Assembly (NCBI RefSeq): GCF_003626535.1
Contig: NZ_RBAL01000013.1
Span: forward strand, 124,001 to 188,000
Reading direction: 5' to 3'
DNA: 64,000 nt
DNA from: Streptomyces hoynatensis
GTDB taxonomy: Bacteria; Actinomycetota; Actinomycetes; Streptomycetales; Streptomycetaceae
A model generated the notes under the pieces. The model ran no database searches. It was given only the letters and a program-made list of their open reading frames with translations, and had not been told where the DNA came from. A program made the translations under genes and the position numbers. Positions 43,033-60,255 of the stretch are shown piece by piece; within the stretch, counting starts at the first letter, position 1, and every line of letters begins with the position of its first letter.

Positions 43033-44379
43033 TCACTCGATGGTGGGGCTTTGGGCAGAGGAGGCCCCGCCCGGCGCGCCGGGACCCGCGGCAGGGTCCG
43101 GCGCGGGACCTGCCGCGGCACCCGCGGCGGCGGCCGCGATGTCGGTGCGGTGGTGCGAGCCGGCCAGGCCGATCCGGCCGACGGCGCGGTAGGCCCGCGA
43201 CCTGGCCTCGGCCAGGTCGGCCCCGGTGGCGGTGACCGAGAGCACGCGCCCCCCGGCGCTCACCACGCGGCCCTCCTCGTCCAGGCGCGTGCCGGCGTGC
43301 AGGACGTAGGCGCCCGGGCCCTCGGCCGGCCCGGCCGGCCCGGCCAACTCGTCGAGCCCCTCGATCGGATCGCCGGTGCGCGGGGAGCGCGGATACCCCT
43401 CGGCGGCGATCACCACGGTGACCGCGGCCTCCTCACTCCAGCGCAGCGGGGGCAGGTCGGCCAGCGTGCCGGTGGCGGCGGCGTGCAGCACGCCGCCCAG
43501 CGGGGTGCGCAGCCTGGCCAGCACGACCTGGGTCTCCGGGTCGCCGAACCTGGCGTTGAACTCCACGACGCGCACCCCGCGGGAGGTGAGGGCGAGCCCG
43601 GCGTACAGCAGCCCGGAGAAGGGGGTGCCGCGCCTGCGCATCTCGGCGATCGTCGGCCGCAGCACGGTGTCGAGGACCTCGTCGGCCAGCTTCGGGTCGG
43701 CCCAGGGCAGCGGCGAGTAGGCGCCCATGCCACCGGTGTTGGGGCCCCGGTCGCCGTCGAGGGCCCGCTTGAAGTCCTGGGCGGGCTGGAGCGGCAGGAC
43801 CGTCTCCCCGTCGGTGACCGCGAACAGCGAGACCTCGGGGCCGTCGAGGTACTCCTCGATCACGACCCGGCCGCAGGCGCGCGCGTGCGCGCGGGCCTCG
43901 GCGAGGTCCTCGGTCACCACCACGCCCTTGCCCGCGGCGAGGCCGTCGTCCTTCACCACGTAGGGCGGGCTGAAGGCGTCGAGCGCGGCGTCGGCCTCCT
44001 CGGGGGTGGCGCAGAGATAGGAGCGGGCGGTGGGCACGCCGGCGGCCGCCATCACCTCCTTGGCGAAGCCCTTGCTGCCCTCGAGGCGGGCCGCCGCGGC
44101 CGAGGGCCCGAAGACCGGAATCCCGGCCTCGCGCACGGCGTCGGCGACCCCGGCGACCAGCGGCGCCTCGGGGCCGACGACGACCAGGCCGGCGCCGAGC
44201 CGGGTGGCGAGGCCGGCCACGGCCGCGCCGTCGAGCTGGTCCACCTCGTGGCGGGTCGCGAGCGCGGCGATCCCGGCGTTGCCCGGCGCGCAGTGCAGCT
44301 CGGTGACGGCCGGGTCGCGGGACAGGGCGTGGCACAGGGCGTGTTCGCGGGCGCCGCCGCCGATGACAAGGAACCTCAC
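43033..44379 (-). CDS. purD: Phosphoribosylamine-glycine ligase
   Basis: A 448-residue ATP-grasp enzyme. It starts [18 protein letters not shown] and has the motifs [25 protein letters not shown] and RFGDPETQV. It makes GAR from phosphoribosylamine and glycine. The last 30 residues are an Ala/Gly/Pro tail beyond the usual end. The GTG 44379 start follows a TAGGCT -10 box by six bases, so the transcript is likely leaderless. Confidence 0.96.
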
Positions 44380-44583: not shown

Positions 44584-45276
44584 GTGAGCAGCCAGCCGGA
44601 GAAGCAGATGGCGGACGGGACGCACCTGCCGCCAGGGGCCTGGGCGGAGCCGGGCGACCGGCTCGGCGAGCTGTACGCCAGGGCGGAGGCCGAGGCGCTG
44701 CGCAGCGTGGCCTGGTACCTCTCCGTCCGGCGGCGCAAGCGGCGCGCGGCGCGGGCGCTGCGGCTGGGCACGGTGCTCGGCGCGGCGCTCGGGGTGGCGC
44801 TGCCGCTGTTCGGCCTCGGCAGGCCGGGCCACCTGGCGCTGCTCGGCGCCGCCGCCTGCCTCGGCTGCGACCGCTACCTCGGGGTCACCTCGGGCTGGCT
44901 GCGCTCGGTCGACACCGCCCAGGCGATTCGGCGGCGGCTCGAACGGCTGCGCTACGAGTGGGCGGCGGAACTGCTCGGGCCCTGCGACGGCCTGGTGGGC
45001 GAGGCGGCCGAGCGGCGGCTCGGGGTGCTGCGCCGGTTCTCCGAGGACGTCACCGAGCTGGTGCGGGCCGAGACCGCCACGTGGATGCGGGAGTTCGGGG
45101 CGCCGGTGGGCGCGGCGCCGCCGCTCGCGGCGGCCGGGCAGGCGGCGCCGGGCGCCCGCCCCGAGCCGCAGGCCCAAGAGCCGCCCGCCCGCTTCCGCTT
45201 CCCGGGCGACCCGCACCTGCGCCCCAGCATGCCGCGGCAGCGCCCGCCCGAGTCCGGCCCGGGCGGGCAGACCTGA
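44584..45276 (+). CDS. SLATT-like two-TM protein
   Basis: A 230-residue protein. A basic helix (LYARAEAEALRSVAWYLSVRR) precedes two TM segments at about 58-100 (LGTVLGAALGVALPLFGLG and HLALLGAAACLGCDRYLG), then a conserved amphipathic helix (GWLRSVDTAQAIRRRLERL) and a Pro-rich tail. This arrangement fits the SLATT (SMODS/SLOG-associating 2TM effector) group, which in other settings forms membrane effectors of nucleotide-signal defence systems. There is no SMODS or SLOG gene beside it, and streptomycetes have it next to purD. GTG 44584 has GGGGAG upstream. Confidence 0.68.
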   Translation: MSSQPEKQMADGTHLPPGAWAEPGDRLGELYARAEAEALRSVAWYLSVRRRKRRAARALRLGTVLGAALGVALPLFGLGRPGHLALLGAAACLGCDRYLGVTSGWLRSVDTAQAIRRRLERLRYEWAAELLGPCDGLVGEAAERRLGVLRRFSEDVTELVRAETATWMREFGAPVGAAPPLAAAGQAAPGARPEPQAQEPPARFRFPGDPHLRPSMPRQRPPESGPGGQT

Positions 45277-45334
45277 GGACGGGCCACGGCCTCGGCGGCC
45301 GTGGGCGGAGCGCCTGGGCTTCCCGGGGCCGCGA

Positions 45335-45340
45335 TTAGAG
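45335..45340 (+). promoter_or_regulatory. -10 box of leaderless DUF1330 gene
   Basis: TAGAGT ends eight bases before ATG 45349 and no ribosome site is present. Confidence 0.5.
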
Positions 45341-45348
45341 TCCTGCCC

Positions 45349-45639
45349 ATGACCGCTTATCTGATCGCGAACGTGCGGCTGACGGGCGACGCCGGGGAAC
45401 TGGCCGAGTACCGGTCGAAGGTGGCCGCGACTCTCGAACCGTACGGCGGCAGGTACCTCGCCCGCAGCAGCGAGGCCGAGGTCGTGGAGGGCGACTGGGA
45501 ACCCGGGCAGGTGGTGCTGGTGGAGTTCCCCGACGCCGCCGCCGCGAAGGCCTGGAACGAGTCGGCGGAGTACCGGGCCATCGCCCCGCTGCGCGCCCGG
45601 AACACGGAGAGCACGCGGCTCATCGTCCCCGGCCTGTGA
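45349..45639 (+). CDS. DUF1330 family protein
   Basis: A 96-residue ferredoxin-like (dimeric alpha-beta barrel) protein. It starts MTAYLIANVRLTGDAGELAEY, contains YGGRYLARSSEAEVVEGDW and ends with the typical ARNTESTRLIVPGL. The family resembles small monooxygenase-like dimers but has no established reaction. It lacks a Shine-Dalgarno site and follows a TAGAGT -10 box, so it is probably translated leaderless. Confidence 0.92.
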   Translation: MTAYLIANVRLTGDAGELAEYRSKVAATLEPYGGRYLARSSEAEVVEGDWEPGQVVLVEFPDAAAAKAWNESAEYRAIAPLRARNTESTRLIVPGL

Positions 45640-45708
45640 GCCGGGGGCGCCCACGCGGCGGGCCCGGGCGGCGGCGGGAGGCGCCCGCCGCCGGGCCGTG
45701 GCGGGCGC

Positions 45709-46359
45709 TCAGCTGAAGACGATCATCGAGCCCTGGGCGAGGCTGCGGGTGGCCGCGGCGTGCAGCCCGAGCCAGACGTGCCGCTCCCGGGCGAACGGGC
45801 CGTCCTCGGCGCGCGGCCCCGCGGCCGGCTCCTCCAGCCGGGTCGGCCGCTCGGGAGGGGCGGGCGCGGGCGGCGGGTTGAACGGGTCGATGCCCAGGAC
45901 GGGCGCCACCGCCTCCAGTTCCCGCAGCAGGCCCTGGCTCGAACCCAGCGGGCCGCCGCCGGCCAGCAGCGCGTCGTTGACCAGCGGGTGCGGGAAGTCC
46001 ACCGGCACATACGCCCCCGCGTGGTCGAAGTGCCAGACGAGATGGGCCTGCTGGGCCGCGGTCTCGAACATCTCCAGCAGCTGCTGGTAGTCGCCGTCGA
46101 GCCGCTCGGCCGGGGTGACGGGCAGCCCGCTGAGCTGCAGCAGGTAGGCGCGGCGCAGCAGGTGCAGGGCCGCGTAGTCGAAGCCGGCGACGGGGGCGAC
46201 CGTCCCCGACATGCCCGCCACGTAGCCGAACACCGGCACGGGCGGCAGCCCGGCCTCGGCCAGGGCCCGGTCGTACTCGGCGAGTTCCTCCGCGAAGGGG
46301 TTGTCGGGGCTGTGGCACAGCACGTCGACGAGGGGGACCAGCCACAGGTCACAGGCCAC
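45709..46359 (-). CDS. Conserved hypothetical protein
   Basis: A 216-residue soluble protein that I do not recognise. It begins ACDLWLVPLVDVLCHSPDN after GTG 46359 and contains FGYVAGMSGTVAPVAGFDYAAL and LVWHFDHAGAYVPVDFPHPL. The pattern of His and Asp residues near VWHFDHAG could bind a metal, but no family motif is clear. The C-terminus is helical with a Pro-rich linker. A GC-rich imperfect hairpin at about 45655-45700 probably terminates it and the convergent DUF1330 gene. It lies downstream of a GntR regulator on the same strand. Confidence 0.7.
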   Translation of the reverse strand: MACDLWLVPLVDVLCHSPDNPFAEELAEYDRALAEAGLPPVPVFGYVAGMSGTVAPVAGFDYAALHLLRRAYLLQLSGLPVTPAERLDGDYQQLLEMFETAAQQAHLVWHFDHAGAYVPVDFPHPLVNDALLAGGGPLGSSQGLLRELEAVAPVLGIDPFNPPPAPAPPERPTRLEEPAAGPRAEDGPFARERHVWLGLHAAATRSLAQGSMIVFS

Positions 46360-46475
46360 GGAGGGGCTCACTCTCGAAATCCGGCGGGCGCGGGACGGGC
46401 GCGGCGCGGGCCGCGCCAGCTCAGGGTACGGGGCGCGCGGGCAACGGCCCTGCAGGCGGTGGCGAGTTCGGCCGC

Positions 46476-47135
46476 TCAGGCGGTGGCGAGTTCGGCCGCC
46501 ATGGCGAGGGCGTGCTCGCGGTGGTCGCGCAGCAGGCGCCTGGTCTCGGCGCAGTCCACCCGCTCGACGGCGTCGCTGAGTTCGAGGTGGGCCGCCCAGA
46601 GGCGGCCGGCGAGGCGCCGCTCGCGGCGCAGGTAGGGAACGGTGAAGGCCCAGCAGCGCACGCGGAGTCTGTCGAGGAACTCCCCGATGTGCGGGTTGCC
46701 GAGCAGGGCGTCCAGCTCGCGCCAGAAGCGCAGGTCGTAGGCGATGAAGATGTCGAGGTCGCCGGCGAGCGCGGCCTGCCGCGCGGCCACGGCGCGGCGG
46801 CGAATGGAGGTGAACGCCTCCGGGCCGCCCTCGCGGGGGCTTAACGCCGGTCTGTGGGCGAGTATCCCGTCGCTGACCAGGGTCTGCGCCTCGATCATGT
46901 GCTGGAAGTCGGCGAGCGAGAAGCGCTTGATGCGAAAGCCCCGGTGCTGCTCCACCTCCAGCAGCCCCTGCGCGGACAGGTCGACGAGCGCCTCGCGCAC
47001 CGGGGTGGCGGAGACGCCGTACTGCTCGGCTATCTCCCGGACGGTGAACTCCCCGCCGGGGCCGAGCCTTCCGGCCAGGATCTCCTCCCGCAAGGCGTCG
47101 GCGAGCTGCTCTCGCAGCGTGCTGCGTCGAATCAC
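46476..47135 (-). CDS. GntR-family transcriptional regulator (FadR-type)
   Basis: A 219-residue regulator. The N-terminal winged helix reads FTVREIAEQYGVSATPVREALVDLSAQ, and the rest is an all-helical FCD-like ligand domain with candidate metal ligands (DLRFWRELDALLGNPHI). GTG 47135 follows a TAGTCT -10 box by eight bases with no ribosome site, pointing to leaderless translation. It is divergent from a MarR gene and lies upstream of the hypothetical gene at 45709-46359, its possible target. Confidence 0.87.
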   Translation of the reverse strand: MIRRSTLREQLADALREEILAGRLGPGGEFTVREIAEQYGVSATPVREALVDLSAQGLLEVEQHRGFRIKRFSLADFQHMIEAQTLVSDGILAHRPALSPREGGPEAFTSIRRRAVAARQAALAGDLDIFIAYDLRFWRELDALLGNPHIGEFLDRLRVRCWAFTVPYLRRERRLAGRLWAAHLELSDAVERVDCAETRRLLRDHREHALAMAAELATA

Positions 47136-47143
47136 GGCAGTCC

Positions 47144-47182
47144 AGACTACAGACGCCCCGGGCATATGACAGGATGTTGTCA
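47144..47182. promoter_or_regulatory. GntR leaderless -10 box and adjacent palindrome
   Basis: Minus-strand TAGTCT is at 47144-47149. The palindrome TGACA-N6-TGTCA lies at 47167-47182 upstream of it and overlaps the first codons of the divergent MarR gene; it is a candidate operator. Confidence 0.5.
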
Positions 47183-47876
47183 ACGGGCGAGGGTGGCGCG
47201 CCTCCCGGACCCGAGGGCCCGTGCGGCGGACACGGGCGCGAGGCACGCGAGGAGCGCGGAACAGGTGGGAGGCGCGGCGGGCGCGGGGCGCGCGGCGGGA
47301 AGCGCGGGCGCGGGCGGCAACACAGGCGCGGGCGGAAGCGCGGGCGCGGGCGGGGAGGCCGGCGCGGGCGCGGGCGCGGCCGGGAGCGCGGAGGCACGGC
47401 AGTTGCTCGCCGCCTACGCGCGCGCCGTGCGGCGGCTGGACGGCCGGTTCCAGGCCGCCGCCGAGCGGCTGGCCCGGCCGGCCGGGCTCACCGCCGCCTG
47501 GTGGCAGGTGCTCGACGCGGTGCGCGACCGGCCGCGTCCGGTGGCGGAGATCGCCCGCGCCACCGGGGTCACCCGGCAGAGCGTGCAGCGCGTCGCCGAC
47601 CTGCTGGCCGCCCGCGGGCTCGCCGACTTCAGGACCAATCCGGCGCACCGGCGCGCGAAGCTGCTGGCGCCCACCGCCGAGGGCCGGGCCGCCCTGGCCG
47701 CCGCCGAGCCGGAACGGGCCGCGTTCGCCGCCGCGTTCGCCGCGGAACTCGCCACGGCGCTGGGCGGGGAGCGCGAGCCGGCCGCCACGCTGCGTGCGCT
47801 CGCCCGGCTCGCGCATGCGCTGGACCGGCTCGGGGAGGCCGGCGCGGGCACCCCGCGGAAGGACACCGGATCGTGA
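47166..47876 (+). CDS. MarR-like winged-helix regulator with Gly/Ala-rich N-terminal tail
   Basis: The last 155 residues form a MarR domain: AWWQVLDAVRDRPRPVAEIARATG, then VTRQSVQRVADLLAARGLADF, then the wing and a dimerisation helix. Before it lies a low-complexity stretch of about 75 residues with repeats of GAGGSAGAGG. The start is uncertain: ATG 47166, GTG 47193, or a later codon that would leave out the repeats. No ribosome site settles it. The target is unknown; the divergent GntR gene is one option. Confidence 0.7.
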   Translation: MTGCCQRARVARLPDPRARAADTGARHARSAEQVGGAAGAGRAAGSAGAGGNTGAGGSAGAGGEAGAGAGAAGSAEARQLLAAYARAVRRLDGRFQAAAERLARPAGLTAAWWQVLDAVRDRPRPVAEIARATGVTRQSVQRVADLLAARGLADFRTNPAHRRAKLLAPTAEGRAALAAAEPERAAFAAAFAAELATALGGEREPAATLRALARLAHALDRLGEAGAGTPRKDTGS

Positions 47877-48241
47877 CCGCGAGGCCGCCGGGAAACTGAT
47901 CGTTCCCCGCCCCCGGCCGGGCCGTTGGGCTTATCCTCGTGCCGGGCGGCCGGGCCGCGCCGGGGCCACATCCGGAGATTCCCGGGAGAAAGCCGTGGAA
48001 AGGCTTGGGGAAGAGGGCGCCGACGCAGCGCGGAAGGCCTCCCCGGCCCGTGGAAGGGGGCGTGCGAGGCGGAGGGCCGGGCCGCGGCTCACGCCGGCCG
48101 GTTGCCCGCGCAAGCCCGCAGGCCCCGGGCCGCGGGGAGCCCGACGTCACGCACCGTATCGAACCCACAGGGCCGCCGAGGGGGCCGCGCAACTATCCTC
48201 GGTGACGCAACCAACGTACGTATCGGGGGAGTCTGCTCCAC
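47877..48241. other. Spacer before the kinase array
   Basis: No gene is supported in these 365 bases. It ends with GGGGGAG as ribosome site for the first kinase, preceded by the small palindrome AACGTACGTA at about 48213-48222. Open frames on the minus strand through here are antisense shadows of the kinases. Confidence 0.55.
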
Positions 48242-50269
48242 ATGGATCGGCTGACGCCACAGGACCCGCACCGAATCGGCCGCTACCGGCTTCTCGGGAG
48301 GCTGGGCGAGGGCGGAATGGGCCAGGTCTACCTGGCGCGCTCCGAACGTGGCCGCATGGTTGCCGTCAAGACCATCAGGTCGGCGCTGGCCCAGGAGCCC
48401 GACTTCCGGGAGCGTTTCGCCCTGGAGATCACCGCGGCCCAGCGCGTCGGCGGCCAGTGGACCGCCCCCGTGCTCGACGCGGACACCGAGGCCGCCACCC
48501 CCTGGGTGGCCACCGGCTACATCGCCGGGCCCTCGCTGCACCAGGTGGTCAGCCAGCAGTTCGGGCCGCTGCCCGAGCGGAGCGTCAGCCTGCTGGCGAA
48601 CGGGCTCGGCCACGCGCTGCGCGACATCCACGGCGCGGGGCTCGTCCACCGCGACCTCAAGCCGTCCAACGTCCTGCTGACCATCGACGGCCCGCGCGTC
48701 ATCGACTTCGGCATCGCCCGCGCCCTCGACGTCACCACCGGCGGCCTCACCCGCACCGGCGCCACCGTCGGCTCCCCCGGCTTCATGTCGCCCGAGCAGG
48801 TGCGCGGCCGGCGGCTGACGCCCGCGAGCGACATCTTCTGCCTCGGCTCGCTCCTCGCCTACGCGGCCACCGGCAGGACCCCCTTCGGCTCGCTCCAGTC
48901 CGGGGTGCACATCCTGCTGTTCCGCATAGTCGAGGAGAGCCCCGACCTCTCCGAGATACCGGAGCAGCTGCGGCACCTGATCTCCGGCTGCCTGGCCAAG
49001 GAGCCCGACCAGCGGTTCTCCCTCGACGACATCCTGAGCCTCACGGCCCCCGACGGCTCGCGCGAGCCCTGGCTGCCCGGGCCGCTGGTCGCCCAGCTGG
49101 GCCGGCACGCCGTGGAACTCCTCGACTCCGAGGACCCGCAGAGCCGCACCGACGGCCGGGCCCTCGGCGCCCCGACCCGGCTCGCCACACCCCAGGTGCC
49201 GCAGGGGCACACCGGCGCCCCGCCCACGGCCTCGGCGCAGCCCGCGACCTCGCCGCAGCCCGCCCAGCCGGCGCACCCCTCCCCGCCGCAGCCCTGGCCC
49301 GCGGCGGCGCCCACCCCGCACCCCGTGCCGGTGCCCTCCCCCTACTCGCAGCCGAACCTGTCCTACACCCCGCACTCGATGCCCTCCGTCGGCTCGATGC
49401 CGAACACCGGGGGGTTCGGCGCGCCCTACGCGACCGGGCCGCAGCCGGCGAGGCGGCGCCGGCCGCCGCTGGGCGTGGTCGCCGCCATCGGCGTGCTCGC
49501 GCTGGTCGCGGTGCTCGGGGTGGTCGTGGCGAACCAGCTCGCCGGGGGCGACGATTCCACGATCGACGAGGCGTACCTCGGCGCCTGGCAGGGGGACTAC
49601 GAGGACGGCAGCGGCGTGCTGCACAAGCTGCGTTTCGAGATCGTCCAGGGCGGCGAGGGGGACGTCGTCGGCACCGCGATGACCCTCGCCCCGCGCGAGC
49701 TGTGCCGCTTCGACATGGTGATGACCTCCTTCAGCGGGGACGACGGCCTGGAGTTCACCGAGCGGTCCGACTGGAGCGTGCCCGAGGACGCGGTGACCAG
49801 CGGCGGCTGTGGCGACGACGACCGGCCGCAGCGCCTCAAGCTGGGCGAGGACGGCCTGGACTGGAGCTACCGCGAGGAGACGTCGACCCTGCACGAGGCG
49901 CCGTCGGACGGCAACGCCGTCGTGCCCGACACCCTGATCGGCGACTGGGGCGGCGCCTGGGAGACCGACGACCACACCCAGGGCAGGAGCGACATCACCA
50001 TCTCGCAGGGCTCCTTCGGCGACTCCGTCCTGCGGTACACCGAGACCACCGACGAGACGACCTGCACCTGGGAGAACCGCCTGGTCCAGGTCAACGGGCG
50101 GGAGATCGTCCTGGGCCCGGACACCCTGGTGGAGTCCGGCGAGGGCGACGAGTGCGACGTCTACGCCGCCTTCCGTTTGTGGACGGAAGAGGACGACGAC
50201 AGCAAGATCAAGATCGTGTGGCTGAACGATCTCGACCGCGATCCGGTCGAGTTTGCCCGGAATGGCTAG
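48242..50269 (+). CDS. Transmembrane Ser/Thr protein kinase 1 of tandem array
   Basis: A 675-residue PknB-type kinase. G-loop RLGEGGMGQVYLARS, VAVK lysine at about 43, HRDLKPSN at about 136, DFG at about 155 and GSPGFMSPEQ are all intact. A Pro/Gln-rich linker (about 300-400) leads to one TM helix at about 404-430 and an outer domain of about 235 residues. That domain starts YLGAWQGDYEDG, has four ordered cysteines (ELC, GGC, TTC, DEC) and a second repeat-like half (IGDWGGAWETDD). It probably senses an extracellular cue and phosphorylates cytoplasmic targets. It is the most divergent of the four copies. Confidence 0.93.
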   Translation: MDRLTPQDPHRIGRYRLLGRLGEGGMGQVYLARSERGRMVAVKTIRSALAQEPDFRERFALEITAAQRVGGQWTAPVLDADTEAATPWVATGYIAGPSLHQVVSQQFGPLPERSVSLLANGLGHALRDIHGAGLVHRDLKPSNVLLTIDGPRVIDFGIARALDVTTGGLTRTGATVGSPGFMSPEQVRGRRLTPASDIFCLGSLLAYAATGRTPFGSLQSGVHILLFRIVEESPDLSEIPEQLRHLISGCLAKEPDQRFSLDDILSLTAPDGSREPWLPGPLVAQLGRHAVELLDSEDPQSRTDGRALGAPTRLATPQVPQGHTGAPPTASAQPATSPQPAQPAHPSPPQPWPAAAPTPHPVPVPSPYSQPNLSYTPHSMPSVGSMPNTGGFGAPYATGPQPARRRRPPLGVVAAIGVLALVAVLGVVVANQLAGGDDSTIDEAYLGAWQGDYEDGSGVLHKLRFEIVQGGEGDVVGTAMTLAPRELCRFDMVMTSFSGDDGLEFTERSDWSVPEDAVTSGGCGDDDRPQRLKLGEDGLDWSYREETSTLHEAPSDGNAVVPDTLIGDWGGAWETDDHTQGRSDITISQGSFGDSVLRYTETTDETTCTWENRLVQVNGREIVLGPDTLVESGEGDECDVYAAFRLWTEEDDDSKIKIVWLNDLDRDPVEFARNG

Positions 50270-50317
50270 CCTTCCGCGGATCACGATCGCGCACACCCGC
50301 CGAACGCGGCACAGGAC

Positions 50318-50516
50318 CGGGAACCGTTCGCCGTTCCGCTTCTGTCCTTCCTGAGCGTGCAGGGAAACGGCCCGGGAAGTCGCGTGGTCCCCGCGTCCGC
50401 CCGGAGCCCGGTCCCCGGCCGAGCGGGCGGGGGCGCGGCGAGCGGCGCGGGCCGGGAACGACGGGGGGACGACGGGGTGTGAACCACGGGGTGGATCACG
50501 GGGGAACCACGGGGTG
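50318..50516 (+). promoter_or_regulatory. Upstream region of kinase 2 with duplicated segment and short repeats
   Basis: The stretch at about 50319-50364 (GGGAACCGTTCGCC, then CTTCTGTCC and TGCAGGG) closely resembles the sequence before kinase 4 at 55102-55148. From 50456 to 50514 the unit G-A/G-A/T-C-G/C-ACGGGG recurs five times (50456, 50467, 50481, 50493, 50504), directly ahead of the GAAAGGAAG ribosome site. Confidence 0.65.
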
Positions 50517-50533
50517 AAAGGAAGTAGTTCACA

Positions 50534-52684
50534 ATGAAACCGCTCGGGCCGACAGATCCCCAGCAGGTGGGCCACTACCGGCTGCTGGGGAAATTGGGCG
50601 CCGGCGGAATGGGCAGCGTCTACCTCGCCCGCTCCGACCGCGGACGCACGGTCGCCGTCAAGCTCGTCCAGCCGGAACTTGCCGCCCAACCGGAGTTCCG
50701 CCAGCGCTTCCAGCACGAGGTCGACGCGGCGCGCCGGGTCGGCGGGGACTGGACGGCGCCGGTGCTGGACGCCGACACCGAGGCGGCCACCCCCTGGGTG
50801 GCCACCGGCTACGTGGCCGGGCCCTCGCTGCACGACGCCGTCACCGGCATGCACGGGCCGCTGCCGGAGCGCACCCTCTTCCCCCTGGGCAACGGCCTGG
50901 TGAAGGCGCTGCGCGACATCCACGCGGCCGGCCTCGTCCACCGCGACCTCAAGCCGTCCAACGTGATGATCACCATCGACGGCCCCCGCGTCATCGACTT
51001 CGGCATCGCCCGCGCCCTCGACGTCACCACCGGCGGCCTCACCCGCACCGGCGCGGCGGTCGGCTCCCCCGGCTTCATGTCCCCCGAGCAGTGCCGCGGC
51101 CAGACGCTGACCACCGCGAGCGACATCTTCTGCCTCGGCTCCGTCCTCACCTTCGCCGCCACCGGACGCACCCCCTTCGGCGACCCGCACACCGCGATGA
51201 CGACGCTGATGCTGCGCATCGTCCAGGGCGAGTACGACCTCGACGGCGTGCCGGAGAACATCCGCGGCGTCATCGAGGACTGCCTGCGGCAGGAGCCGGG
51301 CGAGCGGCCGACGCTCGACGAACTGGCGCGGCGGACCGACGTTCCCGATCCGAGCGGCGACCCCTGGCTGCCCAGCGCCCTGGTGGCCCACCTCGGCCGG
51401 CACGCGGTGGAACTCCTCGACTCCGAGGACCCGCTCACCACCTACCAGCCCGCCCACCCGGCGCAGCCCACCCAGGGGACGCCGTCCCCGCCGCCCCAGA
51501 CCCCGGGGACGAACGGCATGGCGACGATGGCCTCCGCCACCCCGCCGCCCTCGCCGCCCCCCGGCTACGCCACCCCGCCGCCCTCGCCGCCCCCCGGCGG
51601 GGCCTACGGCTACCCGCAGCCGACGGCGGGCGCCCCCGCCTACGGCTACCCCCAGCAGGGGGTGGGCCCGGCCACCGGCCCGGTCGCCGCGAACCCGTAC
51701 GGGACCGGCTACCCGGGCGGCCCCGCCGGCCCCGCCGGCCCCGGCGCGAGCGGGCCGCGGCGCAACAACGTGCTCCTCATCGGCATCGCCGCCGTGGTGG
51801 TCTTCGCGATCGCCGTGGTCATCGGCGTGGTGGCGCTCGGCGGCGGCTCGGACGACGAGGCGGACGACGGCGGCCCGACCGGCGGGCAGACCAGCCCGTC
51901 GGGCAACTCCTCGACCGGGCCCTCGGAGGACCCCTCGGACGACCCCTCGGACGACGGCTCCGACGACTCCTCGAACAACGTCGACGCCGATCCGAACGCC
52001 ACGGTCGGCCCCCAGTACGTCGGCGCCTGGGAGGGGGAGGTCTACGAGAACGACGAGGACAAGCACTGGTACCAGCGCATCGAGATCACCGAGGGCGACG
52101 GCGGCGACACGGTCGCCACCCAGTGGACGCTGCTCAACGGGCTGCTGTGCACCGAGCAGGCCGCCCTCGTCTCCTCAGGAGAGGACGGCCTCGGCATCCA
52201 GGGCACCGGGGCCACCGCCGCCTCACCCGCCGGCGAACTCGACAACTGCGGCCCCTACTCCAACCAGACGCTGACGCTCCAGGACGACGGCACGCTGCTG
52301 TGGGCCAATGGCAACCTCCACGCGACCATGGCCCCCTCCGCCCTGTCGCCCGGCGGGGACGGCGTCTCGATCGACATCTACAACAGCACCTACCGGGCAC
52401 CCGACTTCGAGATCACCACCGCGCACGACGGCAACGCCGGCGACCTCGCCCTCACCTACGACAACGGCTCCTGCCAGTGGGAGGCAGTGGTCTTCTCGGG
52501 CAACCAGGACGACACGACCCTGATCGTGGGTCCGGGCGACCCGGTCTCGGGTGGCTGCGACCGCCTGCCGCCGTACAAGCTGACCTGGGACGACGTCGGT
52601 TTCCTCGAAACGGCACCGACGATCACCTTCACGCCGTTCTTCGGCTCGGACGACGAGGGCTTCACCGCGCAGTTGCAGGAATGA
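50534..52684 (+). CDS. Transmembrane Ser/Thr protein kinase 2 of tandem array
   Basis: A 716-residue kinase beginning MKPLGPTDPQQVGHYRLLG. G-loop LGAGGMGSVYLA at 21-32, Lys43, HRDLKPSN at 136-143, DFG 155-157 and FMSPEQ at 181-186 are intact. The linker at about 300-405 repeats YGYPQ and PPSPPPG units. One TM helix lies at about 408-432, then an Asp/Ser-rich spacer and the outer domain from about residue 493 (YVGAWEGEVYEN) with cysteines in LLC, DNC, GSC and GGC. DNA of the catalytic part is almost identical to kinases 3 and 4. Confidence 0.95.
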   Translation: MKPLGPTDPQQVGHYRLLGKLGAGGMGSVYLARSDRGRTVAVKLVQPELAAQPEFRQRFQHEVDAARRVGGDWTAPVLDADTEAATPWVATGYVAGPSLHDAVTGMHGPLPERTLFPLGNGLVKALRDIHAAGLVHRDLKPSNVMITIDGPRVIDFGIARALDVTTGGLTRTGAAVGSPGFMSPEQCRGQTLTTASDIFCLGSVLTFAATGRTPFGDPHTAMTTLMLRIVQGEYDLDGVPENIRGVIEDCLRQEPGERPTLDELARRTDVPDPSGDPWLPSALVAHLGRHAVELLDSEDPLTTYQPAHPAQPTQGTPSPPPQTPGTNGMATMASATPPPSPPPGYATPPPSPPPGGAYGYPQPTAGAPAYGYPQQGVGPATGPVAANPYGTGYPGGPAGPAGPGASGPRRNNVLLIGIAAVVVFAIAVVIGVVALGGGSDDEADDGGPTGGQTSPSGNSSTGPSEDPSDDPSDDGSDDSSNNVDADPNATVGPQYVGAWEGEVYENDEDKHWYQRIEITEGDGGDTVATQWTLLNGLLCTEQAALVSSGEDGLGIQGTGATAASPAGELDNCGPYSNQTLTLQDDGTLLWANGNLHATMAPSALSPGGDGVSIDIYNSTYRAPDFEITTAHDGNAGDLALTYDNGSCQWEAVVFSGNQDDTTLIVGPGDPVSGGCDRLPPYKLTWDDVGFLETAPTITFTPFFGSDDEGFTAQLQE

Positions 52685-52752
52685 GATCCCCCGGGCACGC
52701 CCGCGCCGGGGCGGGATTCTCCGCCCCGGTGAGCCGGAAATCGAGTCGCCCG

Positions 52753-52758
52753 TATGCT
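52753..52758 (+). promoter_or_regulatory. Putative -10 box of kinase 3
   Basis: TATGCT lies in CGCCCGTATGCTC, which matches CGCCCGTATTCTC before kinase 4 in all but one base. It is about 75 bases before the ATG. Confidence 0.5.
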
Positions 52759-52831
52759 CGTGGGACGGACTCGTGGGACGGAAGAGGGCGAAGCGCGGGT
52801 CGAACCCGGAAGGCTGAGGGAGTAGCCACAC

Positions 52832-54928
52832 ATGAAACCGCTCGGGCCGACAGACCCCCAACGGGTGGGGCACTACCGGCTGTTGGGGAAATTGGGCGCC
52901 GGCGGAATGGGCAGCGTCTATCTCGCCCGCTCCGACCGCGGACGCACGGTCGCCGTCAAGCTCGTCCAGCCGGAACTCGCCGCACAACCGGAATTCAGGC
53001 GGCGCTTCCAGCACGAGGTGGAGGCCGCGCGCCGGGTCGGGGGCGACTGGACGGCGCCGGTGCTGGACGCCGACACCGAGGCGGCCACCCCCTGGGTGGC
53101 CACCGGCTACGTGGCCGGGCCCTCGTTGCACGAGGTGGTGGCGGACACCTACGGGCCGCTGCCGGAACGCTCCTTGTTCCTGCTGGCCAACGGCCTGGTG
53201 AAGGCGCTGCGCGACATCCACGCGGCCGGCCTCGTCCACCGCGACCTCAAGCCGTCCAACGTGATGATCACCATCGACGGCCCCCGCGTCATCGACTTCG
53301 GCATCGCCCGCGCCCTGGAGTCCGAGGGCCCCGGCCTCACCCGCACCGGCGCGGCGGTCGGCTCCCCCGGCTTCATGTCCCCCGAGCAGTGCCGCGGCCA
53401 GACGCTGACCACCGCGAGCGACATCTTCTGCCTCGGCTCCGTCCTCACCTTCGCCGCCACCGGACGCACCCCCTTCGGCGACCCGCACAGCGCCATGACC
53501 GCGCTGATGCTGCGCATCGTCCAGGGCGAGCACGACCTGGAGGGCGTGCCCGCGAGCGTGCGGCCCATGATCGAGGCCTGCCTGAACCTGGACCCGGCGC
53601 AGCGGCCCACCCTCGAACAGCTGGTCCAGCACACGGAGATACCCGACGACGGGGAGCCCTGGCTGCCGGGGGCGCTGGTGGCCCGCCTGGGCCGGCACGC
53701 GGTCGAACTCCTCGACTCCGAGGACCCCCTGCAGACGGCGACCCAGTTCGCCGCAGGGCCCCCGCCGCAGGGCGGCCCCCCGGCGACGCCGCCACCGAGC
53801 CCGCCCCCGCCGTCCGGCACCGGCGTCAACGCCATGCCGACGATGGCCTCCGCGACCCCGCCCCCCGGCTACGGGACGCCGCCGCCCGGCGCCTCCTACG
53901 GCTACCCGCAGCAGGCCCCGCCGCCGGGCTACCCGCAGCCGACCCCGCTGCCCGGCCAGAACCCGTACGGCGCGGGCTATCCCGGCGGGCCCGCGGGCCC
54001 CGGAGGCCCGCAGCCGCCCGGCGGGCCGAAGCCGGGCGGGCGCAACAACGCGCTGCTCATCGGCATCGCGGTGGGCGTCGTCATCGTGCTCGCCGTCGTC
54101 ATCGCCGTGGTCGCCTCCGGCGGCGGCGACGACGATCCCGACCCGAACCCGACCGCGACCGGCGAGAACACCGAGGGGCCCACCGGCGGCCCCACGGACG
54201 GCGGATCGAGCCAGGAGCCGGGCACCGGCAGCGTGCCGGACAACATGATCGGCGCCTGGGAGGGCCGGCTCCAGGGCGACGACACAGCCTACTTCGAGCG
54301 GATCGAGATCGTCGCCGGCGAGGCCGGCGCCACCGTGGCCACCCAGTGGACGGTCGGCCCCACCGCCATGTGCGTGGAGTCCTCCACGCTCTCCTCCTCC
54401 GACGGCACGACCGTGACCCTCCAGGGCTCCGGGATCACCTCGCAGACGCCGAGCGACGCGGGCTGCCAGCCGTACGGGAACCAGACCCTCCAGCTCCAGG
54501 GGAGCACCCTGCACTGGGAGGACGACGCGGGCTACTCGGGCGACCTGACCCTCTCCTCGATGACCGACTACGACACGTACGACGAATCCAGCGGCGACGA
54601 CACCTACGACGGCATGCCGTACTCGGTCTTCGACCAGACCTTCGCGGGTGCGGGCTACACGGTCGCCCCCGAGGTCAGGGCCCCGGCCGGGGAGATGGCG
54701 TTCACCCTCACCCAGGGCAACTGCACCTGGACCGACGCCATGATCAGCGGGGGGCTCCAGGCGACATCGCTCGTCCTGGGCCCGGGCACCGTGACCGCGG
54801 GCAGCGGCTGCGACCCGCTGCCGAGCTTCTCGGTGCAGGTGAACGTCGCCGAGGACGGGGACGCGAGTTCCCTCGTCTTCACCCCCTTCGGTGCGGACAG
54901 CGGGGGCTTCACGGTGAACAGGGAGTAG
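52832..54928 (+). CDS. Transmembrane Ser/Thr protein kinase 3 of tandem array
   Basis: A 698-residue kinase with the same start (MKPLGPTDPQRVGHYRLLG) and intact Lys, HRD, DFG and SPEQ motifs. The activation loop begins ALESEGPGLTRTG instead of ALDVTTGGLTRTG. The linker has GYPQ repeats and the TM helix lies at about 405-432. The outer domain starts MIGAWEGRLQGDD and has cysteines in AMC, AGC, GNC and SGC. It carries an insert (DYDTYDESSGDDTYDG) absent from its paralogs. Its ribosome site is GAGGGAG. Confidence 0.95.
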   Translation: MKPLGPTDPQRVGHYRLLGKLGAGGMGSVYLARSDRGRTVAVKLVQPELAAQPEFRRRFQHEVEAARRVGGDWTAPVLDADTEAATPWVATGYVAGPSLHEVVADTYGPLPERSLFLLANGLVKALRDIHAAGLVHRDLKPSNVMITIDGPRVIDFGIARALESEGPGLTRTGAAVGSPGFMSPEQCRGQTLTTASDIFCLGSVLTFAATGRTPFGDPHSAMTALMLRIVQGEHDLEGVPASVRPMIEACLNLDPAQRPTLEQLVQHTEIPDDGEPWLPGALVARLGRHAVELLDSEDPLQTATQFAAGPPPQGGPPATPPPSPPPPSGTGVNAMPTMASATPPPGYGTPPPGASYGYPQQAPPPGYPQPTPLPGQNPYGAGYPGGPAGPGGPQPPGGPKPGGRNNALLIGIAVGVVIVLAVVIAVVASGGGDDDPDPNPTATGENTEGPTGGPTDGGSSQEPGTGSVPDNMIGAWEGRLQGDDTAYFERIEIVAGEAGATVATQWTVGPTAMCVESSTLSSSDGTTVTLQGSGITSQTPSDAGCQPYGNQTLQLQGSTLHWEDDAGYSGDLTLSSMTDYDTYDESSGDDTYDGMPYSVFDQTFAGAGYTVAPEVRAPAGEMAFTLTQGNCTWTDAMISGGLQATSLVLGPGTVTAGSGCDPLPSFSVQVNVAEDGDASSLVFTPFGADSGGFTVNRE

Positions 54929-55101
54929 TTACCGACCCGTTGGGCGCCGAAGTTTCGCCAGGGCCAACTACAGTGTCCGCACGGGCCTTCGGCGCCCGAC
55001 GGGGGCGGCAGCGGTGCTGTCGGCCGTCGGCTCCGCGGCATGCAACGACTCGGTCTGATTCCGGTCACGAATAGGCACAGACTTCAATCCCCCTGCCGGT
55101 G

Positions 55102-55160
55102 CGGGAACCGATTACGGTTCGGCTTCTGTCCTCCTTCGTGTGTGCAGGCGCCCGTATTCT
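55102..55160 (+). promoter_or_regulatory. Kinase 4 promoter region
   Basis: The segment 55102-55148 repeats the sequence before kinase 2, and TATTCT at 55155-55160 lies in the same context as the box before kinase 3. GAGGAG at about 55182-55187 is the ribosome site. Confidence 0.5.
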
Positions 55161-55196
55161 CATGAGGCTTACCGCAGCGAAGAGGAGTAGCGCAGG

Positions 55197-57353
55197 ATGA
55201 AACCGCTCGGGCCGTCAGATCCTCAACGGGTGGGGCACTACCGGCTGCTGGGGAAATTGGGCGCCGGCGGAATGGGCAGCGTCTACCTCGCCCGCTCCGA
55301 CCGCGGACGCACGGTCGCCGTCAAGCTCGTCCAGCCGGAACTTGCCGCCCAACCGGAGTTCCGCCAGCGCTTCCAGCATGAGGTCGACGCGGCGCGCCGG
55401 GTCGGCGGGGAGTGGACCGCCCCCGTGCTCGACTGTGACACGGAGGCCGAGACGCCCTGGGTGGCGACCGGCTACGTGGCCGGGCCCTCGCTGCACGAGG
55501 TGGTGGCGGACAGCTACGGCCCGCTGCCGGAGCGCACCCTGTTCGTCCTGGCCAACGGCCTGGTGAAGGCGCTGCGCGACATCCACGCGGCCGGCCTCGT
55601 CCACCGCGACCTCAAGCCGTCCAACGTGATGATCACGATCGACGGCCCCCGCGTCATCGACTTCGGCATCGCCCGCGCCCTGGAGTCGGGCGAGGGGCTG
55701 ACCAGGACGGGCGCCGCGGTCGGCTCCCCCGGCTTCATGTCCCCCGAGCAGTGCCGCGGCGAGACCCTGACCGCGGCGAGCGACATCTTCTGCCTCGGCT
55801 CCGTCCTCACCTTCGCCGCCACCGGACGCACCCCCTTCGGCGACGCCAACAGCGCCATGACCGCGCTGATGCTGCGCATCGTCCAGGGCGAGCAGGACCT
55901 GGAGGGCGTGCCCGAGGCGGTGAAGCCGCTGATCGAGAGCTGCCTCACCCAGGACCCCACGCAGCGGCCGAGCCTGGACCAGCTGCTCCAGTACACCGAC
56001 ATACCCGACGCGGGCGACGAGCCGTGGCTGCCCGGCGCCCTGGTGGCCCGGCTCGGCCGGCACGCGGTCGAGCTCCTCGACTCCGAGGACCCGCTGCAGG
56101 CGCCGCCGCTGCCGCAGAACGCGCCGCCGCCCGCCATGCCGCAGCAGCCCCCGGTCACCCCGCTGCCGCCCGGCGCCTCCCCGGTGCCGCCGGCGCCCCC
56201 GACCCCGACGCAGCTGAGCGTTCCGGCCACGCCGCCGCCCCCGCAGGGGCCGGGCACGGGCGTCAACGCGATGGCGACCATGACCTCGGCCGTGCCGCCG
56301 CCCGGCTACGGCACCCCGCCCCCGCCGGGACAGGGCGGCTACGGCTTCCCGCAGCAGGCCCCCGGCACCCCCGCCTACGGGTATCCGCAGGACCCGAACG
56401 CCCAGGGCGCGTACGGCCCCGGCTACCCGGGCGGGCCCACGGTCGTCGGCCCCCCGGCGGGCCCGGGCGGCCCGCGGCGCAACAACAACACGGCCTGGAT
56501 CATCGTCGCGGCGGTGGCCGTGCTGGCGCTGGTCGTCGGCGTGGCGGTGTTCGCGCTCGGCGGCGACTCCGACGACGAGGCCGACGACCCGCCGACCAGC
56601 CCCTCCTCCTCCGCGAGCCCCGACCCCTCGGGCAGCGCCTCGCCCTCGCAGGAGCAGAGCCAGTCGGCGCCGCCGCAGGACCCGTCGGCGACCGTGCCCT
56701 ACGAGTTCGTCGGCGCCTGGGAGGGCGAGGTCAGCGGCGGCGCCGAGGGCGCCAACTTCCAGCGCATCGAGATCAGCGAGGGCGGCGCGGGCGCGACCGT
56801 CGCCACCCAGTACACGGTCCTGACCCAGCTGATGTGCACCGAGCAGGCGGTGCTGACCTCCGCCACGGGCAGCTCGATCAGCATCTCGGGCACCGGCGTC
56901 ACCGGCACCTCCCCCTCCGGGGCGACCTGCCAGCCGTACGGCGAGCAGACCATCCAGTACCAGACGGACGGCTCGCTGCTGTGGAGCGACGGGACCAGGA
57001 CCGCGACGCTCCAGCCGGCCGCGCTCTACGTGGACTCGGACGGGATGCCGCTCGGCATCTACGACCACACCTTCGCCGCCCCCGACTTCCAGTTCACCGC
57101 CGAGTACTCGGCCAACGCCGGCGACCTGGCCCTCACCTACACCAACGGCTCCTGCACCTGGCAGTCGGTGCTCATCGCCGGCGGCGTCAGCGAGACCTCG
57201 GTGCTGGTCGGTCCCGGCGAGGTCACCTCGGGCAGCTGCGACCCGCTGCCGCCTTACCGGATCGAGTGGACGGACCCGAGCACCACGAACGACGTGGTGC
57301 AGATGACGCCCTTCGGCGAGAGCAGCGGCTTCCAGGCCACGCTCAGCCAGTAG
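55197..57353 (+). CDS. Transmembrane Ser/Thr protein kinase 4 of tandem array
   Basis: A 718-residue kinase starting MKPLGPSDPQRVGHYRLLG with intact catalytic motifs (G-loop, VAVK, HRDLKPSN, DFG, GSPGFMSPEQ). The activation loop reads ALESGEGLTRTG. The long linker (about 300-425) is rich in PP and YGYPQ repeats, and the TM helix lies at about 437-460. The outer domain starts FVGAWEGEVSGG and has cysteines in LMC, ATC, GSC and GSC, ending DPLPPYRIEW. It is last in the array; a strong shared terminator separates it from convergent purA. Confidence 0.95.
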   Translation: MKPLGPSDPQRVGHYRLLGKLGAGGMGSVYLARSDRGRTVAVKLVQPELAAQPEFRQRFQHEVDAARRVGGEWTAPVLDCDTEAETPWVATGYVAGPSLHEVVADSYGPLPERTLFVLANGLVKALRDIHAAGLVHRDLKPSNVMITIDGPRVIDFGIARALESGEGLTRTGAAVGSPGFMSPEQCRGETLTAASDIFCLGSVLTFAATGRTPFGDANSAMTALMLRIVQGEQDLEGVPEAVKPLIESCLTQDPTQRPSLDQLLQYTDIPDAGDEPWLPGALVARLGRHAVELLDSEDPLQAPPLPQNAPPPAMPQQPPVTPLPPGASPVPPAPPTPTQLSVPATPPPPQGPGTGVNAMATMTSAVPPPGYGTPPPPGQGGYGFPQQAPGTPAYGYPQDPNAQGAYGPGYPGGPTVVGPPAGPGGPRRNNNTAWIIVAAVAVLALVVGVAVFALGGDSDDEADDPPTSPSSSASPDPSGSASPSQEQSQSAPPQDPSATVPYEFVGAWEGEVSGGAEGANFQRIEISEGGAGATVATQYTVLTQLMCTEQAVLTSATGSSISISGTGVTGTSPSGATCQPYGEQTIQYQTDGSLLWSDGTRTATLQPAALYVDSDGMPLGIYDHTFAAPDFQFTAEYSANAGDLALTYTNGSCTWQSVLIAGGVSETSVLVGPGEVTSGSCDPLPPYRIEWTDPSTTNDVVQMTPFGESSGFQATLSQ

Positions 57354-57371
57354 TCCCGAGGCGGGCGAGGA

Positions 57372-57412
57372 ACGGGCCCGGCGCGCGATCGGCTCGCGCG
57401 CCGGGCCCGTTT
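57372..57412. terminator. Shared terminator between kinase 4 and purA
   Basis: A perfect 17-bp stem (57372-57388 with 57394-57410) with a 5-nt loop is followed by TT. Confidence 0.85.
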
Positions 57413-57414
57413 CC

Positions 57415-57444
57415 CGTGCGCCGCCGGGAGGGCGGCGGCGCACG
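57415..57444 (-). terminator. Second hairpin after purA
   Basis: Perfect 11-bp arms (57415-57425 with 57434-57444) and an 8-nt loop lie four bases beyond the purA stop; no T run. Confidence 0.65.
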
Positions 57445-57448
57445 GTCC

Positions 57449-59616
<2,168 letters not shown>

Positions 59617-60255
59617 TCAGCCCGCCACGGCACGCGGCCCGGCCGCCGCGCCTGACTCCCGGCCCACCCCGGACTCGCCGGTCGCGGCGGTAGCGCCGTT
59701 CACGGCCGGCTCGCCGGACACGCGCTCGCGCCAGCGGGCGAGGATGCCGTCGAGCTCGGTCTGGAGGAACTCCATGAACTCGGCCGTCTCCGAGAGCCTG
59801 GCCGCGGCCGGGGTGCCCGCGCCCACCGCGTCGATGCCGGCCCGCAGGCTCGCCGACCAGCGCGAGAGCAGCGGCTCCCGGCTGAGCATGGTCTCGTACC
59901 AGGCGTTGTGCAGCAGCCGGTAGCGCTCGCGGCGGGAGCCTGGCTCGCGCTCGCGGCGCAGCATGCTGAGGCGGGAGAGGTAGCGGACCGCGCCGGAGAC
60001 GGCGGCGGGCGAGATCTGCAGCCGCGTGGCGAGCTCCGCCGAGGTCAGGCCGTTCTCCTGGGAGGCGAGCAGGCAGGAGAAGACCCGCGCGGGCATCCGC
60101 TGCATCCCCGCCTCGGTGAGGTCGGCCGCGAACCGTTCCACGAAGGCCGCCATCTCCTCGGTGTACGCGTGGCGCGGCTCGGCGGGCCGACGCGGCACCC
60201 CGGGCGGCCCGGTCCGCTCATCGGTTCTTCGTGTCGTGATGTCGCGTTCGATCAC
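59617..60255 (-). CDS. GbsR/MarR-type transcriptional regulator
   Basis: A 212-residue regulator. The winged helix reads LTSAELATRLQISPAAVSGAVRYLSRL with a basic wing (RREREPGSRRERYRL). The C-terminal part is helical (EFMEFLQTELDGILARWRERV) and then a low-complexity Ala/Gly tail. GTG 60255 has GGGAGG eight bases upstream. It is divergent from a two-gene ABC exporter, with a palindrome over the exporter promoter, so it most likely represses that exporter. Confidence 0.87.
   Translation of the reverse strand: MIERDITTRRTDERTGPPGVPRRPAEPRHAYTEEMAAFVERFAADLTEAGMQRMPARVFSCLLASQENGLTSAELATRLQISPAAVSGAVRYLSRLSMLRREREPGSRRERYRLLHNAWYETMLSREPLLSRWSASLRAGIDAVGAGTPAAARLSETAEFMEFLQTELDGILARWRERVSGEPAVNGATAATGESGVGRESGAAAGPRAVAG

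Follow-up and report, generated by a model that had tools for sequence, protein, structure and literature searches.

Why four complete transmembrane Ser/Thr kinases should stand side by side in one bacterial genome, with similar kinase halves and unlike outer halves, is the question raised by a locus of Streptomyces hoynatensis (assembly GCF_003626535.1, contig NZ_RBAL01000013.1, positions 124,001 to 188,000 of the forward strand; this stretch of 64,000 nucleotides (nt) is called the window, and coordinates refer to it). The four genes, K1–K4, are complete Hanks-type receptor kinases arranged head to tail on the + strand at 48242–57353, adjoining purA. They encode proteins of 675, 716, 698 and 718 amino acids (aa), and the gaps between them measure 264, 147 and 268 nt, none of which wholly contains an open reading frame (ORF) of at least 90 aa. 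The Pfam Pkinase domain (PF00069) scored above cut-off in all four (E = 5e-39, 5e-35, 1e-38 and 2e-39 for K1 to K4), and each protein carries VAVK (K43), HRDLKPSN (136), DFG (155) and SPEQ (182/183), the set of features by which Hanks-type kinases are recognized in sequence. A single strong hydrophobic segment (mean Kyte-Doolittle 3.0–3.4), starting at residue 412 in K1, 415 in K2, 409 in K3 and 435 in K4, follows a proline-rich linker and precedes a C-terminal tail of 245–283 residues; on hydropathy, the predicted topology is one transmembrane (TM) helix with an outer domain. An earlier sequence-only reading, which described four intact receptor kinases with no gene between them and with the catalytic Lys, HRD, DFG and SPEQ motifs retained throughout, is thereby confirmed. 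Likewise, no gene for an FHA protein or phosphatase lies in the array, and Pfam detected none in 18 further chosen ORF frames at 36–64 kb, a selection that does not cover every possible gene.

The four genes are not equivalent. Scanning a genome collection with K4 gave 29 loci (numbered L001 onwards; genomes carry the letter G), 26 of them named Streptomyces, and the recurrent gene order in relatives was GntR – [K0] – K1 – KX – purA – DAGK. Both anchors lie on the contig in 12 other loci; five of these have two and seven have three kinases between GntR and purA, compared with four in the window, from which the K0 slot is absent. A kinase tree of 50 rows (loci L022 and L025–L029 and frames below 300 aa left out) resolved the clades K0 (100/98), K1 (99/92) and KX (100/99; 16 rows), with K2, K3 and K4 all inside KX. 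The interval from K1 to purA could be read in 11 loci of the KX clade (L001–L008 and L011–L013), and each of them has a single KX-clade kinase there. Judged from this tree and the gene order, the locus has K1 and KX as its two old slots; K1 is a long-standing paralog retained across the clade, and the expansion is three-fold and restricted to KX, which has become K2, K3 and K4 in the window genome. The expansion of intact receptor kinases proposed by the sequence-only reading consequently stands for KX, while a recent four-fold duplication was rejected by the K1/KX split. The same reading held that ancient, separate clades in relatives would argue against a recent expansion, and this applies to K1 and not to K2–K4; its suggestion of counting copies at purA gave a higher number for the window, of genes that belong to different slots.

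The three-copy KX state is known from this one genome, and no close relative was found. The contigs of L009 and L010 (genomes G136 and G286) stop shortly after the KX kinase, and a sensor profile search gave one more strong sensor in each genome, on another contig; collapsed extra KX copies are possible there. An assembly artefact in the window was rejected, as the kinase DNA of K2, K3 and K4 is 87–89% identical and the sensors far less so, on a single contig with conserved flanks. Chance resemblance was dismissed in view of 75–89% kinase DNA identity across all six pairs and a gene order kept in relatives.

The silent sites of K2–K4 divide the genes into two parts. At four-fold degenerate sites of aligned codons, the kinases match at 0.79 (K3/K4), 0.83 (K2/K4) and 0.87 (K2/K3), compared with 0.64, 0.60 and 0.52 for the respective sensors (Fisher's test, p = 0.034, 0.0004 and 8e-7). 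For reference, 75 between-species KX pairs, drawn from 13 KX genes and so not independent (L009–L011 left out, also for the synonymous divergence dS), had medians of 0.62 for the kinase and 0.60 for the sensor, and only one of the 75 kinase values was as high as those within K2–K4. The kinase-minus-sensor difference had a between-species median of 0.03, and the values of K3/K4, K2/K4 and K2/K3 were reached by 4, 1 and 0 of the 75 pairs. Similarly, the kinase/sensor dS ratio is 0.37–0.55 among K2–K4, with a between-species median of 0.97 and minimum of 0.59. A plain recent tandem triplication, in which young copies kept their kinases under purifying selection while the sensors diverged fast, would be the simplest account; it is consistent with a kinase protein identity at ortholog level and with sensors that evolve fast in other species as well. 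However, it predicts equal silent divergence in both halves, and the sensors are at between-species level and the kinases are not. Moreover, monophyly of the sensors was rejected (see below) and kinase identity is patchy in two of three pairs. This explanation is already disfavoured, and we regard it as improbable.

The patchiness has the form of tracts. Four-fold mismatches are clustered along the kinases of K2/K4 (p = 0.004) and K3/K4 (p = 0.009), whereas nine of nine control pairs gave p > 0.05. A longest-run test on all variable sites gave uncorrected p values of 0.0005 for K1/K2, K2/K3 and K2/K4 and 0.006 for K3/K4, and blocks of complete identity (143 bases in K2/K4, 158 in K2/K3) adjoin blocks as divergent as between species. 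A further tract of 68 nt, running from DFG into the activation loop, is shared by K1 and K2 only, whose common segment ALDVTTGG occurs in none of the 13 KX kinases of other species; the closest among the 12 other K1 proteins are two, with LDATHGG and VDVTSAG. The longest identical run between K1 and KX was 23–53 nt in the 12 other loci. The shared kinase silent sites and the K1/K2 tract are most likely due to recombination (gene conversion) within the array.

Separate trees of kinases and outer domains, a check suggested by the sequence-only reading, revealed different histories, since the kinases of K2–K4 fall into one KX clade but a single clade of their sensors was rejected by the approximately unbiased (AU) test. 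The p-AU value was 0.0018 with 20 chosen rows (14 KX and 6 K1 sensors) and 0.025 with 11 rows (KX sensors without L005, L006 and L013). The lack of a single K2–K4 sensor clade is also what would be expected if a resident KX kinase chassis had received divergent sensor segments by homologous recombination with relatives outside the present sample, the breakpoints lying within the proline-rich linker. Such an import agrees with the drop in identity among the copies on passing from the kinase to the linker and sensor, and also with the single KX gene at 11 of 11 readable loci, since an array with three copies of old standing would have had to lose genes many times. Conversely, no donor was seen, the best sensor identity outside the own genome being 46–52% and the K3 sensor finding no match on plasmids, and the kinase domains are themselves mosaic, which importing sensors alone would leave unexplained. 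We consider import unlikely, albeit the most serious of the competing explanations.

In combination, we favour as probable, with considerable room for doubt, that K1–K4 form a purA-linked AfsK/PknB-like array whose KX kinases are kept alike by gene conversion, while the diverged sensors report different ligands via one output. Several observations weigh against this explanation. The four-fold mismatches of K2/K3, 11 in number, are not significantly clustered (p = 0.14), and the longest-run test on silent-only columns gave p = 0.10 for both K2/K3 and K1/K2. Ten of the 12 other loci have their longest K1–KX run close to the same catalytic/DFG region, which is conserved; the K1/K2 match is therefore partly a matter of constraint, and what sets the tract apart is chiefly its variable part and less its length. 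The kinase proteins of K2–K4 are no more alike than KX orthologs; conversion is thus not needed to explain kinase protein conservation. The kinase DNA tree joins K2–K4 weakly (45/30), and in the kinase protein tree L001 and L009 join K2 and K3, leaving K4 outside (98/83). The sensors of K2–K4 align at only 43–49% identity, which makes sensor trees and dS noisy. Finally, the interval between K1 and purA at L018 contains two kinases outside the KX clade that share 70% identity, an instance of two genes in this interval without homogenization. Further adjacent kinases, at L014, L018 and L129–L133, are 58–78% identical, hence not homogenized. General concerted evolution at the locus was likewise unsupported, given this range and the grouping of L014/L015 orthologs before paralogs; long-lasting concerted evolution is described as rare in prokaryotes (PMC6053082).

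The outer domain was characterized by structure prediction. A Pfam scan of the four outer domains gave no family above cut-off, and no lipocalin match. An alignment of K1–K4 with 28 relatives shows four invariant cysteines and near-invariance at G9, W11, G13 and R26; the possible likeness of G9/W11 to the lipocalin GxW motif has no Pfam lipocalin match alongside it. An AlphaFold2 model of the K4 sensor from this 32-row alignment is all-β (pLDDT 96.4, pTM 0.91) and replaced an earlier model from just four sequences (pLDDT 79). Barrel 1 of the model has eight strands and aligns with designed eight-stranded barrels at Z scores up to 11.9; among natural calycins it resembles VtrA/VtrC chain B (Z 8.1) and CRABP-II, nitrobindin and retinol-binding protein (Z 7–8), values that are middling by the tool's own scale. 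Barrel 1 is accordingly modelled as an eight-stranded calycin/lipocalin β-barrel, a fold reading that we consider good, although a Foldseek search with the K4 sensor model returned no match at E ≤ 0.001. Barrel 2 is all-β in the model and barely covered by structure matches in the whole-model search; it is assigned by its likeness to barrel 1, the two profiles matching with a probability of 97.7% and their cysteines in register, which points to an internal duplication in the sensor. The prediction thus shows the K4 sensor as two small calycin-like β-barrels in tandem. These would lie outside the membrane, with one disulfide each, and may bind small, probably apolar molecules.

Whole or partial matches to the sensor profile were found in 296 of 392 same-genus genomes, seven candidates being scored per genome; on the same count the window genome alone has four matches, and 12 genomes have three. 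Many of the listed genus matches cover barrel 2 alone, suggesting that sensors with a single barrel are widespread in the genus. The sequence-only reading had attributed the array to selection for several sensors of related signals feeding one kinase output. Alike kinases with unlike sensors fit this proposal. However, the KX sensors of different species are equally divergent (tree for this comparison without 10 named rows and proteins below 500 aa), so that sensor divergence alone is no proof of selection for new signals. Positive selection on the sensors was not supported either, dN/dS being approximately 0.5–0.7 in two orthologous pairs (L004/L008 and L003/L007).

With regard to known systems, AfsK of Streptomyces (NF053615) is the best-scoring curated NCBIfam model for K1–K4, at 288–304 bits through the kinase half. 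Its cut-off of 1300 bits is not reached, and according to Pfam the array proteins lack the C-terminal PQQ repeats, which in AfsK make a β-propeller-like structure (PMC1262709), and have the predicted tandem barrels instead. The PASTA kinases PknB, PrkC and Stk1 (NF033483) share the Hanks-type kinase, one TM helix and a C-terminal sensor, and the best solved relatives of the array kinases are PknB chains (6i2p, E = 3e-37); however, K1–K4 score 174–187 bits against a cut-off of 450 and have no PASTA domain by Pfam. VtrA/VtrC, a bile-salt receptor, and the other calycins listed above resemble barrel 1 at the level of structure, and differ from the arrangement here, in which two tandem barrels are predicted on a Ser/Thr kinase. 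Searches of open-access papers found none that deals with this array, nor any describing sensors of calycin type on Ser/Thr kinases of bacteria.

Two eukaryotic cases show a comparable pattern. In mammals TLR1 and TLR6 are adjacent receptor paralogs. Gene conversion homogenizes their signalling part, while their N-terminal part, which discriminates between ligands, groups by ortholog (PMC2077338). The likeness to K2–K4 lies in pattern and not in kinship, as the proteins are unrelated and, in the TLR pair, conversion recurred in several lineages and included the membrane segment, as opposed to one genome here. The Arabidopsis OAK cluster consists of tandem receptor kinases with a conserved kinase, a diverging outer domain and signs of gene conversion (PMC3136440), features shared with K1–K4. 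The OAK proteins, however, are plant receptors with malectin-like and leucine-rich repeat (LRR) domains, and the identical 2.7-kb fragment of the cluster spans the outer part and ends just inside the kinase.

Mechanistically, the outer barrels would bind small molecules, and binding would bring the kinase domains of the receptors together to phosphorylate each other across homo- or heterodimers. The near-identical kinase cores could allow mixed pairs among K2–K4, and the kinase domains of K1–K4 might act on common substrates, such that the diverged sensors would report different ligands through a single output. A more specific version, drawn by analogy, would make the array a bacterial counterpart of TLR1/TLR6, with conversion keeping the kinases interchangeable for heterodimers and cross-phosphorylation and the double-calycin sensor diversifying for several small-molecule signals at the cell surface; we offer this as a tentative idea, on balance doubtful. 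The stimuli of bacterial Ser/Thr receptor kinases are termed an outstanding question in PMC6069109. The array amounts to a set of natural domain swaps, three nearly equal kinases bearing three very different sensors of one predicted fold in one genome, and one can therefore ask directly whether the sensors set the signal and whether the kinases share outputs. As the sensor has no Pfam entry and yet is matched in 296 genomes of the genus, a ligand found here could inform on a widespread receptor family.

The upstream regions suggest how the genes may be expressed. Many KX genes are preceded by a long conserved stretch with the palindrome GAACCG-N4-CGGTTC and a second block, CCCGTATTCTCATGAGGC; it is also present in the relatives L002–L008 and L010–L013. 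In the window both blocks precede K4, only the first precedes K2, and K3 lacks the palindrome, with a possible remnant of the second block. Nine of 15 KX palindromes compared are perfect and four retain five of six pairs, with four pairs in L001 and three in L009. The K1 genes of relatives are preceded by a different conserved block, CTATCCTCGGTGAGGCAACC-like. Since conserved blocks precede K1 and the KX copies and resemble separate promoters, these genes may have promoters of their own, and transcription of the whole array as one operon is improbable. A scan of 47850–57500 gave no sigma-70 or terminator-like site. With up to three mismatches allowed, the own genome has the first element solely before K2 and K4; four of five other genomes have it once, G136 being the one without it. 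A role as regulon operator was rejected, as no regulon was found and the element is confined to the K2 and K4 upstream regions in the own genome. The incomplete elements before K2 and K3, together with the fact that no function is known, could be taken to mean that the copies provide redundant dosage or are decaying, with sensing undivided. We hold this to be very improbable, given that each of the four genes has an open frame and encodes the catalytic motifs and all four conserved cysteines of the sensor, and that the sensors of K2 and K3 differ from that of K4 at over half of their residues.

Table 1. Position of the array, its parts and its neighbours in the window
Feature	Coordinates	Strand	Basis
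K1, Hanks-type receptor kinase, old paralog slot	48242..50269	+	ORF, Pfam, hydropathy, kinase tree, motifs
K1 predicted TM helix	49475..49531	+	hydropathy
K1 sensor, two predicted tandem calycin-like barrels	49556..50266	+	alignment to K4
K2, receptor kinase, KX clade	50534..52684	+	ORF, Pfam, hydropathy, kinase tree, motifs
K2 predicted TM helix	51776..51832	+	hydropathy
K2 sensor, two predicted tandem calycin-like barrels	51998..52681	+	alignment to K4
K3, receptor kinase, KX clade	52832..54928	+	ORF, Pfam, hydropathy, kinase tree, motifs
K3 predicted TM helix	54056..54112	+	hydropathy
K3 sensor, two predicted tandem calycin-like barrels	54227..54925	+	alignment to K4
K4, receptor kinase, KX clade	55197..57353	+	ORF, Pfam, hydropathy, kinase tree, motifs
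K4 predicted TM helix	56499..56555	+	hydropathy
K4 sensor, two predicted tandem calycin-like barrels, invariant Cys50, 81, 156 and 184	56688..57350	+	modelled directly
143-nt tract identical in K2 and K4	K2 copy 50573..50715; K4 copy 55236..55378	+	run analysis, DNA identity
158-nt tract identical in K2 and K3	K2 copy 51034..51191; K3 copy 53332..53489	+	run analysis, DNA identity
68-nt tract identical in K1 and K2, DFG into activation loop	K1 copy 48695..48762; K2 copy 50987..51054	+	
Conserved K1 upstream block CTATCCTCGGTGACGCAACC	48193..48212	+	
KX upstream element before K2, imperfect palindrome GAACCG-N4-CCGTTC	50319..50347	+	
Possible second-block remnant CCCGTATGCTC before K3	52749..52759	+	
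KX upstream element before K4, perfect palindrome GAACCG-N4-CGGTTC	55103..55131	+	
Second KX upstream block CCCGTATTCTCATGAGGC before K4	55151..55168	+	
purD, neighbour gene	43033–44379	-	
GntR/FCD regulator, second locus anchor	about 46476..47150	-	Pfam scan, gene order in relatives
purA (adenylosuccinate synthase), locus anchor	57449..58768	-	NCBIfam scan
DAGK-like gene, neighbour beyond purA	58723–59616	+	

The surroundings of the array are summarized in Table 1; Rfam gave no match in 45000–60000. Of 40 Pkinase stretches listed for the own genome, 36 scored above the Pfam cut-off, so the array is a small share of the kinase set. Other loci of the collection vary in make-up. At L018 (7765–14404; L092 is one and the same locus), three kinases with double-barrel-type sensors stand between GntR and purA, the last two of them non-KX, forming an array of different composition, and the three kinases of L014 could not be sorted into K1 and KX in the kinase tree. 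Broken reading frames were observed at L011 (10001–14157, K1 and KX) and L015 (5167–6515, KX), due to sequencing error or decay, and approximately 3.3 kb of additional DNA, not seen in the other loci read, separates KX from purA at L003 (13082–16408). In more distant genomes of the same genus (L085, L086 and L087), a purA-linked kinase carries a weakly similar outer domain (32–33%), and the link of this sensor type to purA may therefore be old.

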